This document shows, piece by piece, positions 31,026 to 34,041 of a stretch of 64,000 nt of DNA; position 1 is the first letter of the stretch; every line of letters starts with the position of its first letter. Where the stretch lies: NCBI GenBank assembly GCA_947258405.1, contig CAMYIE010000001.1, positions 124,001 through 188,000 on the forward strand. The letters are read 5' to 3'. The position numbers were made by a program, and so were the translations under genes. Under the pieces are notes generated by a model. It ran no database searches and had not been told where the DNA came from. It was given only the letters and a program-made list of their open reading frames with translations. The stretch comes from an uncultured Eudoraea sp. Its GTDB lineage: Bacteria > Bacteroidota > Bacteroidia > Flavobacteriales > Flavobacteriaceae.

Positions 31026-31229
31026 ATGAAATTTGTTTGAGTTGGTTTCAATAAGTATTGTGTTAATTAAGGTACTGTATTTTTTCGAAACAAATGAATC
31101 ACAAAGTTCAACAACCAGTAATTCTGATTAGAAAGAATATTGTGAAGTCATACATCGAAACCAGAAGTATTCCGGAATATCGTTGGGTTTTTTTATCTTT
31201 AATACTTAGAATGCATCAACCCAAAAACA

Positions 31230-31262
31230 AAACCCCCATAAACATTAAGTCTATGAGGGTGT
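31230..31262 (-). terminator. Terminator-like hairpin behind the broken downstream tRNA-Phe copy
   Basis: On the minus strand CACCCTCATA pairs with TATGGGGGT (one G-U) across an 11-base loop and is followed by TTTTGTTTTT. It lies 3 bases after the tRNA 3' fragment, just as the second terminator follows the intact gene, and looks like a leftover of a second tRNA unit. Confidence 0.5.
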
Positions 31263-31264
31263 TG

Positions 31265-31314
31265 TGTGGTACCTCCAGGAGATACCTCGTTAACACTCGG
31301 TGTTCCTTTGGAAC
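31265..31314 (-). pseudogene. tRNA-Phe 3' fragment (relic)
   Basis: TGTGGTACCTCCAGGA at 31265-31280 is identical to the 3' acceptor and T-arm start of the intact tRNA-Phe gene (31443-31458). Homology then stops, and two small hairpins follow (AACAC/GTGTT at 31292-31304 and GTTCC/GGAAC at 31302-31314), with a third, CTGCC/GGCAG, at 31339-31351. No anticodon arm or D arm remains. It keeps its own terminator. Confidence 0.55.
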
Positions 31315-31409
31315 CACTCCTGCAAATACAAAACTCATCTGCCTTCGGCAGCTTGTTTCTAGTTCTTAGTCCCTTTGAAAAGTGAACTTTTCACGGTCCT
31401 AAAAACAAG

Positions 31410-31433: not shown

Positions 31434-31444
31434 TGTGCTTGATG

Positions 31445-31517
<73 letters not shown>

Positions 31518-31945: not shown

Positions 31946-32980
31946 CTATTTTAAATCAATAGCATGGAGTCGGAAATCATGGCCATTGTTGATTACCAAA
32001 CTGTCCATTTCCCTAAAAACAATAGTCGTATTTGCTTCTAACCTGCGGTGAACATCATCAGATACCAGGAAGTCCTCATTTAGCTCCTTGCATTTCTTTT
32101 CAATCATTTCACATATATACAAGGCCTCGCCGTGAAAGACTATTTGAGACTTTACATCTCCTATTTGTCCGACTACCAATTCCCCCATATGGCAACAGGC
32201 TCTAAAATCGGGCGGCTGACCAAAATCGCGCTGATAGCTGTCTGCAAGAGACCTCATTTGTTGTTTAACATCGAGATAGAACTGAATACAGTTTGCATTT
32301 TCAAAGGCTTCTTCCTCATTCCAGAATATAGTGATCTGATCTCCCACATATCTGTAGACCTTACCTTTTTTGGAAAGAATAGGCCCTGAAATATCCTGGT
32401 AAAATCGATTAATAAAATGATGATAACGTTCGGCGCCTAATTTTTCTGTGATCCTGGTAGAGGATTTCAAATCAATATATAATAGCACTACAGTTTCTTT
32501 TTTGGGTTTATGATATTTTCCCCATATGATATTCCATAAAACACCAGGCCCCATTTTCAGACTTAGTTGATTGATAAAAAATACAAAGCCGATTATAGCC
32601 AGGGCATATAACAGAATTAATTGAAAGTCTTCTTCGAATAAAAAATGTTGAAATTGTTCACCTTTTAAATAAGACCAGAAACCCACCTGATAGTAAAGGC
32701 TTTCATTAAATACTTTTACAGTGATTAAGGTGATGGCCAGTACGCCGGTATAAAGAAAGGTTTTGGTTAAAAGTGTCGTTTTAAACCCTTTGGCACCCCA
32801 ATGTCTATCAAAGTAATATAATTCCAGCAGGCCAATGGTGACGGAACCGATTAGTCCGGTAAGAATACCATTAATAAATGGCAAATAATCTTCATGGCTG
32901 TCGGCAAAAACCGGATATATAAAACCCGCAATCAGCCCGATGACAACAAATACGATTATTTTTTTTCTAGATCCGATCAT
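31946..32980 (-). CDS. Membrane class III nucleotidyl cyclase, metal-site subunit (C1-like)
   Basis: 344 residues. Four membrane helices (about 7-25, 36-55, 70-90, 120-138) are followed by a GKY linker (154-156) and a class III cyclase homology domain from 163. Both metal-binding aspartates are present: Asp 170 in YIDLKSS and Asp 214 in YVGDQ. The transition-state Asn and Arg of the family are replaced by Tyr 288 and Met 292, as in the C1 half of mammalian adenylyl cyclase. A homodimer should therefore be inactive or weak. Its start overlaps the end of the paralogous gene upstream (ATGA), whose product has the complementary residues. Product could be cAMP or cGMP: position 210 is Arg instead of the usual Lys. 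Confidence 0.85.
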   Translation of the reverse strand: MIGSRKKIIVFVVIGLIAGFIYPVFADSHEDYLPFINGILTGLIGSVTIGLLELYYFDRHWGAKGFKTTLLTKTFLYTGVLAITLITVKVFNESLYYQVGFWSYLKGEQFQHFLFEEDFQLILLYALAIIGFVFFINQLSLKMGPGVLWNIIWGKYHKPKKETVVLLYIDLKSSTRITEKLGAERYHHFINRFYQDISGPILSKKGKVYRYVGDQITIFWNEEEAFENANCIQFYLDVKQQMRSLADSYQRDFGQPPDFRACCHMGELVVGQIGDVKSQIVFHGEALYICEMIEKKCKELNEDFLVSDDVHRRLEANTTIVFREMDSLVINNGHDFRLHAIDLK

Positions 32981-34041
32981 TGAAAGTCAGTAGTTGATAG
33001 GGTAAAAAGTTCAATAGGTTCGCTCTTACCCCTTAGGCTGATTATCCCAAGGCTTTCTGCGTTACAATGTGCTGGTATTTGCAGTAACTTCTCTAATTCT
33101 GCAGACATTAAAACTTGTTTGCCCAGCTCTTTACACTTCCCAAGCATTCGCGCCGTTATATTCATCACGTCGCCATAAAAGGCCACCTTACTTTTAATAG
33201 TACCTACCTCGGCTTGTAGTACCAGGCCATAGTGGAAGGCTATTTCCAATTCCGGAAAAACTTCAAATTCAGCCAGGTACGATTTCTTTTGTACTTCCAT
33301 TTTCTGAATAATATCCAAAACAGATAGCAGGCAATTTGCTTCCTTTACACCCTGTTCCAGTTTCCACGACACCACGCATTCATCCTCCACATATTCGTAG
33401 ATGATGCCTCGGTACAACAAAATAGACTCCGTGATATCGAAAAGGATTCTGTTTAAAAACTCCAGGAATCTGATACTGCCAATCTTATTGATGATTTCCT
33501 GCGAATTGGAGACGTGCATGAACATAATAATCCGCTCTTCTTTTACTGGATTCTTGTATTTTCCGGTGATAAAATTCAGCATGATTCCCTGTCCCATCTT
33601 GCGACTTATCTGGTAAATAAAATTGATCAGAAACGCCAGGGCAACCACATAGACAAGGAGAATTGAAAAGTCTTCATTAAATAAATAGTTCTGAAATTCA
33701 TCACTGTAGTAGACCTCTTTATAGGAAAGACCGAATTTAATTACTCTTGCGGTCATTAATTCCAGTAATATAATAAGTGGTATGAGTACCACATAAACCG
33801 CAGTCCTGATAATCAGCAAAGGAACAAATCGAATATTCCTCATCTTTTCATCTACTACCTGTAGCTCAAAAACTGAGATCACCAGACCAATCAGAGTAGC
33901 TATTGTCACTGTGTTGATGTAAGGAAATAATGAACCAAACCCATCGGACCATAAAACGTAGAAAATGCCAAGTGCATTGCCTGCAATAATAATTGTAGCG
34001 GCGATCCTGATTTTTCTTTTTTGTCTGACTGAAAAAGACAT
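32977..34041 (-). CDS. Membrane class III nucleotidyl cyclase homologue, Asn/Arg-donor subunit (C2-like)
   Basis: 354 residues, same layout as its downstream paralogue: four membrane helices (about 11-30, 43-60, 73-95, 126-143), linker GKY at 160-162 and a cyclase homology domain from 168. The first metal Asp is His 176 (MHVSNS). The second Asp is kept (Asp 220) but in VED instead of VGD. Transition-state residues Asn 294 and Arg 298 are intact in GDVMNITAR. Base-selecting positions read Glu 216 and Ala 287; Glu at the first is found in guanylyl cyclases. It looks like the C2 half of a heterodimer. It is first in the two-gene unit, divergent from coaX. Confidence 0.83.
   Translation of the reverse strand: MSFSVRQKRKIRIAATIIIAGNALGIFYVLWSDGFGSLFPYINTVTIATLIGLVISVFELQVVDEKMRNIRFVPLLIIRTAVYVVLIPLIILLELMTARVIKFGLSYKEVYYSDEFQNYLFNEDFSILLVYVVALAFLINFIYQISRKMGQGIMLNFITGKYKNPVKEERIIMFMHVSNSQEIINKIGSIRFLEFLNRILFDITESILLYRGIIYEYVEDECVVSWKLEQGVKEANCLLSVLDIIQKMEVQKKSYLAEFEVFPELEIAFHYGLVLQAEVGTIKSKVAFYGDVMNITARMLGKCKELGKQVLMSAELEKLLQIPAHCNAESLGIISLRGKSEPIELFTLSTTDFQ

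Follow-up and report, generated by a model that had tools for sequence, protein, structure and literature searches.

A tandem pair of Bacteroidota membrane cyclase genes with the class III active site apparently divided between two subunits

The window (the whole stretch of DNA analysed, 64,000 nt from an uncultured Eudoraea sp.) carries on its minus strand two paralogous cyclase genes that share four nucleotides, the stop codon of the first and the start codon of the second lying in a single ATGA (Table 1). The two deduced proteins are 31% identical across 301 aligned columns. Both score above the Pfam cut-off of 21.9 bits for PF00211 (upstream protein, 36.0 bits; downstream protein, 26.9 bits), and a search of the pair proteins against NCBIfam matched nothing. 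A tRNA-Phe gene (anticodon GAA; 31444-31517, minus strand) separates the pair from the LemA/DUF2207 genes and is followed by a terminator-like hairpin (31433-31410); the open reading frame next to it at 31094-31369 (plus strand) is probably no gene.

Table 1. Features of the cyclase gene pair and its surroundings (window coordinates)
Feature	Position	Strand	Remark
Upstream gene P0002, putative C2-like (substrate-half) membrane cyclase subunit	32977-34041	minus	354 aa; ORF and PF00211
Downstream gene P0001, putative C1-like (metal-half) membrane cyclase subunit	31946-32980	minus	344 aa; ORF and PF00211
ATGA stop/start overlap of the two cyclase genes	32977-32980	minus	same in both orthologous pairs
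Four predicted membrane helices, upstream protein	33595-34029	minus	residues 5-149; AlphaFold2 and hydropathy
Four predicted membrane helices, downstream protein	32552-32971	minus	residues 4-143; AlphaFold2 and hydropathy
Upstream His176 replacing metal Asp 1	33514-33516	minus	Ser in both orthologues
Upstream E216 (base-selecting), E219 and D220 (metal position 2)	33382-33396	minus	E216 and D220 invariant in 3/3
Upstream N294 and R298 (positions 6 and 7)	33148-33162	minus	invariant in 3/3
Upstream K339 (position 8, gamma-phosphate Lys)	33025-33027	minus	kept in 3/3
Downstream D170 (metal Asp 1)	32471-32473	minus	invariant in 3/3
Downstream R210 (base position) to D214 (metal Asp 2)	32339-32353	minus	both invariant in 3/3
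Downstream Met292 replacing the catalytic Arg	32105-32107	minus	His and Phe in the orthologues
Downstream hyperconserved segment, residues 274-288	32117-32161	minus	14/15 positions invariant in three pairs
Pair neighbours, window			tRNA-Phe, pantothenate kinase
Pair neighbours, A. hampyeongensis			LytTR regulator, FAD-binding protein
Pair neighbours, isolate 221			RpiR-type regulator, sulphur transporter

The initial annotation had described the two proteins as four-helix membrane cyclases, and AlphaFold2 and hydropathy indeed predict four helices per chain. Specifically, the modelled helices span residues 5-31, 38-66, 72-103 and 125-149 of the upstream protein, and residues 4-25, 33-60, 66-97 and 119-143 of the downstream protein. 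Both models contain a class III fold, and the closest solved structures are photoactivated and other class III cyclases. One model aligns with OaPAC with a Z-score of 21.3 (rmsd 3.6, 186 residues aligned), and the other with a Z-score of 23.6 (rmsd 11.0 over 221 residues; the next row, Z 23.3, 2.3 over 185). These single-chain models rest on six sequences and have mean pLDDT values of 75.0 and 75.7, with residues 275-279 of the downstream model below 50.

To compare the active sites, we used a scheme of eight positions taken from sGC and mammalian adenylyl cyclase (PMC3591389; this and the other papers cited here were available in part, and statements resting on them extend only to those parts), in which the mapping of positions 4 (Asn-11) and 5 (Asn-7) is our own. 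C1 or alpha supplies positions 1, 3 and 4 of the eukaryotic enzymes, and C2 or beta supplies positions 2, 5, 6, 7 and 8 (PMC3591389). The upstream protein has H176, E216, D220, K283, A287, N294, R298 and K339 at positions 1-8, and the downstream protein has D170, R210, D214, K277, V281, Y288, M292 and G333, with all codons checked. Set against the eukaryotic partition, the downstream chain is therefore complete on the C1 side and ruined on the C2 side, and the upstream chain has kept the C2 side, with Gln replaced by Glu at position 2, and has a C1 side broken at position 1. In addition, E219 replaces the Gly that precedes the second metal Asp of the upstream chain, the metal Asp itself (D220) being retained, as is D291; in the downstream chain, E285 sits in the GD motif.

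The two metal Asp, the Asn, the Arg and the Lys make up a complete set for one site only when both chains are taken together. A homodimeric class III enzyme has all catalytic residues on one chain, a description that neither protein meets in any of the three pairs known to us (two further pairs are described below). The pair does meet the C1/C2 or alpha/beta description, with the metal half on one chain, the Asn/Arg/Lys half on the other, and the second site degenerate. The complementary losses proposed in the initial annotation, of metal Asp 1 upstream and of Asn and Arg downstream, are thus borne out, as is its comparison with mammalian adenylyl cyclase, since the split matches the partition documented for C1/C2 and for sGC alpha/beta (PMC3591389). 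All of its residue numbers are right, as judged by alignment to solved cyclases and to the family. It had allowed that the motifs might be misplaced; this can be ruled out, because the alignments to solved cyclases are locally gap-free at the motifs and find the same residues.

Residues of the wider family were read only in fetched loci, which gave 183 distinct proteins after duplicate removal, some of them fragments and six of them the pair proteins. Among the 177 other members, metal Asp 1 and metal Asp 2 are each Asp in 174/174 aligned proteins, the Asn is present in 173/173 and the Arg in 171/173, with His in the other two; each count leaves out three or four rows that lack the column, being fragments or split alignments. 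At position 2, 142 of the 153 aligned rows have Gln, nine have Lys and two have Leu, and this Gln/Lys norm is not met by the pair (E216, R210). Glu 216 had initially been placed at the base-selecting Lys position; the position is correct, but the family norm there is Gln, not Lys. The cyclase family is a common one, with matches at E <= 1e-10 in 153 of the 397 genomes of the bacterial family.

Adenylate cyclases carry Lys-Asp and guanylate cyclases Glu-Cys at the two base positions. Position 5 is hydrophobic in all six pair proteins, and the upstream chains have Glu at position 2 but Ala or Val at position 5, so that the Glu/Cys signature of guanylate cyclases is not met. We assign no product, because the Glu at position 2 is guanylate-like, yet position 5 is Ala or Val rather than Cys. 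Most members of the four-helix family have Gln at the base-selecting Lys position and are hydrophobic at the second one, and to our knowledge no substrate has been measured for this family.

The initial annotation had suggested a search for the same pair in other Bacteroidota and had named orthologues complete in both genes as a refutation. Two orthologous pairs were found, one in the uncultured Flavobacteriaceae genome G120 (contig CANLWN010000002.1) and one in Arenibacter hampyeongensis JCM 17788 (L123, genome G753); both have the same complementary split, and neither is complete in both genes. Gene order, ATGA overlap and residue split are identical in 3/3 pairs, and the window proteins share only 38-40% (upstream) and 35-36% (downstream) identity with their orthologues. 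Specifically, both upstream orthologues have Ser at position 1, Glu at 2, Asp in place of the Gly, Asp at 3, Asn at 6, Arg at 7 and Lys at 8, and both downstream orthologues have Asp at position 1, Arg at 2, the Gly, Asp at 3, Glu at Asn-3, Tyr at 6, and His or Phe at 7. The downstream chains carry Gly (window), Asn (G120) and Lys (Arenibacter) at position 8, in a stretch that is aligned with little certainty.

No further overlapping pair was seen among the matches listed for 397 genomes of the family, 395 of the order, 395 of the class and 395 of the phylum (overlapping draws), nor among those listed for 60 relatives of the Arenibacter genome, and the pair therefore looks rare and patchy. The family, order, class and phylum searches scored no more than five candidates in any one genome, and adjacency was judged by eye from the hit tables. 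The Arenibacter pair was located by a contig scan with two short peptide patterns only, so more pairs may exist beyond the three; a contig scan with the downstream protein alone as query found no pair. That the three pairs represent three genera is partly inferred: G120 is the sole genome under its genus code, the window genome shares its code with G100 only, and a conserved G120 protein is 75% identical to its A. hampyeongensis counterpart. The pair is absent from G100, but the contig there ends 94 bases past the pantothenate kinase gene, the expected site of the pair. The surroundings differ at all three pair loci (Table 1), and no conserved neighbour was seen that could serve as a functional clue.

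All three genomes also encode single paralogues with a complete site (L004 and L006 in the window genome, L118-L120 in G120, and L240 in Arenibacter). A further family cyclase of the window genome is cut by a contig end (G000:C47:3-608; L073, L088), so the inventory of this genome is incomplete. Two other family members appear to be in pieces, L087 (G086:C5:78591-79567) and L052 (G054:C4:317705-318622), and represent damaged genes or sequencing errors.

The partition extends beyond the catalytic residues. We took the 24 columns in which at least 95% of the other members agree, and counted a column as lost when it was changed in at least two of the three chains. The upstream chains have lost 6/8 metal-half columns, 0/5 substrate-half columns and one column elsewhere, and the downstream chains have lost 1/8 metal-half columns, 4/5 substrate-half columns and none elsewhere (two-sided Fisher p 0.021 and 0.032, which is modest support, with columns assigned to halves after inspection). 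A cruder count of active-site residues in the window alone gave a one-sided p of 0.051.

Trees of 95 and of 44 proteins both group the six pair proteins into a single clade (SH-aLRT 95 in the first tree), within which the upstream and the downstream proteins form sister clades of identical inner branching. In the second tree, from which nine active-site columns were removed, support is 100/96 for the pair clade and 100/99 and 100/97 for the sister clades. The first tree kept 89 of 131 full-length relatives after thinning, and for the second, 13 rows were left out as long or odd, along with roughly half of those remaining; in this second tree, the window's downstream chain lies on a long branch. 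Common ancestry with the Bacteroidota four-helix cyclases, together with the same N-terminal helices, linker and class III domain, places the pair within that family. The simplest reading of these sequence data is a single tandem duplication, after which the site was partitioned once and both genes were inherited together; since the three pairs form one evolutionary lineage, the split counts as one retained event, not three. Furthermore, the two closer upstream proteins have dN values of 0.23-0.24 and dS values of 1.9-3.6, indicating purifying selection. The two closer downstream proteins have a dN of 0.25, for which no dS estimate could be obtained; dS is near saturation, and is not estimable for the downstream pair or for any comparison with the window.

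We consider it probable that the pair encodes two subunits of one obligate heterodimeric membrane class III cyclase, with pairing, activity and coupling all inferred. The tree and the residues show that a tandem duplication among four-helix Bacteroidota cyclases, presumed homodimers, was followed by complementary loss of half-sites. The observed ATGA overlap suggests that both genes are translated together, and the chains would then pair head to tail, bringing eight membrane helices into the heterodimer. The putative live site would comprise Asp 170, Asp 214 and Lys 277 of the downstream chain and Glu 216, Asn 294, Arg 298 and Lys 339 of the upstream chain, and is expected to make a cyclic nucleotide, with adenine or guanine unresolved. 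The second, presumably dead, site would comprise His 176 and Asp 220 of the upstream chain and Arg 210, Glu 285, Tyr 288 and Met 292 of the downstream chain; it is predicted not to catalyse, and has probably turned into a structural or regulatory pocket. By extrapolation from reports on other membrane cyclases, a signal in the eight-helix membrane part may set the activity. Some observations count against this proposal: the upstream chain retains the second metal Asp and Lys 283; substrate binding at the presumed live site is not guaranteed, because position 2 is changed there from Gln to Glu; and the complete-site single paralogues could partner either subunit.

The altered base-selecting residue, Q to E in one chain and Q to R in the other, leaves room for a different view, in which both subunits are pseudo-enzymes and form a heterodimeric membrane sensor that signals on binding a nucleotide or another ligand and makes no cyclic nucleotide. 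It would also fit this view that conservation in the downstream chain peaks in a stretch ending on the dead side. We nevertheless judge it unlikely: both metal Asp, the Lys at position 4, the Asn, the Arg and the Lys at position 8 are kept in 3/3 pairs despite 35-41% identity, and a pure pseudo-enzyme would not need exactly complementary residues. The presence of complete-site single paralogues in all three genomes would also permit the two proteins not to pair with each other at all, each instead modulating complete four-helix cyclases through mixed dimers. This we find improbable, given that the genes are together and overlapping in 3/3 genomes, share one tree topology, and have lost opposite halves.

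The pair is rare, being found in three genomes, and the downstream branch of the window is long, as might be expected of duplicates decaying towards pseudogenes whose complementarity arose by chance. Against this stand frames that are open in three genomes, a dN far below dS between the closer upstream proteins, invariant composite-site residues, and a hyperconserved segment; the split kept in three genomes and the low dN rule such decay out for practical purposes, and we give it very little credence. Least credible of all, barely worth entertaining, is a divided antiphage cyclase of the Pycsar type: the downstream protein has weak matches to PADLOC PycC models (best 2.3e-8) and none is seen for the upstream window protein, but these models fit five of six single-gene relatives more closely (down to 3.7e-13; L004 slightly worse, 1.5e-7), so that the signal belongs to the family at large, and no Pycsar effector was present among ten neighbour proteins scanned (five in the window, five at two other loci), on which two grounds this identity was rejected.

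Returning to the heterodimeric cyclase, its presumed dead site borders the hyperconserved downstream segment, which holds K277 of the live site as well as E285 and Y288 of the dead site. In identity-matched triples of ordinary members (n=8615), the same segment has a mean of 8.75 invariant positions (sd 1.17), and one triple reaches 14; as matched triples overlap and are not independent, the comparison is a ranking, not a probability. The upstream counterpart of the segment is ordinary, with 8 invariant positions, and so is the other conserved hairpin, with 9 invariant positions downstream and 10 upstream against a matched mean of 10.2. Because the downstream segment has lost the catalytic Asn yet is held harder than in complete enzymes, it probably has a new task, either as a ligand pocket or as an essential heterodimer contact. 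Going further, we put forward as a tentative idea, in which our confidence falls somewhat short of even, that a two-gene C1/C2 cyclase evolved apart from those of animals and fungi, and that its dead site is a dedicated allosteric pocket lined by the segment GDVKSQIVFHGEALY, with Arg 210, Glu 285 and Tyr 288 invariant. If true, bacteria would have their own equivalent of the forskolin site, its natural ligand yet to be found.

In class III cyclases the active site is formed at the interface of a dimer; the division of its residues between two subunits is why sGC homodimers are inactive (PMC3591389). Like the pair, mammalian tmAC has the metal-binding half on C1 and the base/Asn/Arg/Lys half on C2 (PMC3591389), as well as one degenerate pseudo-symmetric site able to hold a forskolin-type regulator (PMC3591389, PMC8815786). 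It differs in being one polypeptide with twelve membrane helices, according to the available parts of PMC9433096 and PMC8815786, whereas the pair has two genes with four predicted helices each; moreover, the window pair arose by duplication inside a Bacteroidota family, with the C2-like gene first. sGC also has two subunits, with the metal Asp on alpha and the base/Asn/Arg/Lys half on beta (PMC3591389), and shares Glu at position 2 with the upstream window protein. Unlike the pair, sGC is soluble and eukaryotic, has N-terminal HNOB and PAS domains, and has Cys at position 5, where the pair has Ala or Val.

The fungal rhodopsin cyclases NeoR/RGC are membrane heterodimers in which NeoR, lacking NxxxR, gives the metal Asp of the sole working site (PMC12264004). 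They differ in their rhodopsin membrane part and in that RGC1 keeps the cyclisation residues, its isolated catalytic domain being active alone, as far as described in the accessible text of PMC12264004 and PMC8815786. Mycobacterial Rv1625c/Cya is, like the pair, a bacterial membrane class III cyclase, whose D300A and R376A variants are each inactive and become active as a mixed dimer (PMC4821796); the natural enzyme, however, is a homodimer with six helices per chain (PMC9433096), and the split is laboratory-made. A further comparison is with the parent family of the pair, the single-gene Bacteroidota four-helix cyclases, including L004 and L006, which share the architecture by sequence and fall in the same tree, but have a complete site per chain and mostly Gln at position 2, and are expected, by inference, to be homodimers.

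The split-site principle is thus known from tmAC, sGC and the fungal rhodopsin cyclases, and it is the bacterial two-gene form that appears to be new and to have arisen in bacteria independently of the animal enzymes. Within the open-licence literature, which is limited evidence, no report of a naturally split bacterial cyclase pair was found; in the parts available of two papers, bacterial class III cyclases are described as homodimers (PMC4821796), and heterodimerisation is called widespread in class III cyclases, with examples from higher eukaryotes (PMC8815786). The split pair, the complete single relatives in the same three genomes and complete tandem duplicates elsewhere would represent stages of a C1/C2 transition, available in small, expressible proteins, and make it testable why cyclases turn asymmetric and whether selection makes a regulatory pocket of a degenerate second site.

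The tandem duplicates are four other same-strand pairs lying outside the clade of the split pair (L169, L170, L219 and L220), which have the metal Asp, Asn and Arg in both copies, are separated by gaps of 33-224 nt, and do not overlap. L169 has Leu at position 2 in both copies, and L169 and L170 each have one copy with Arg at position 8. It is possible that these duplicates are early stages of the same route. In a separate arrangement, genus g323 (L171-L175, L187) has two family cyclases near each other on opposite strands, a Lys-type enzyme whose position 5 is Asp or Glu, and a Gln-type enzyme. In L175 of this genus, and in L176 of another genome, the Gln-type copy carries His in place of the catalytic Arg.
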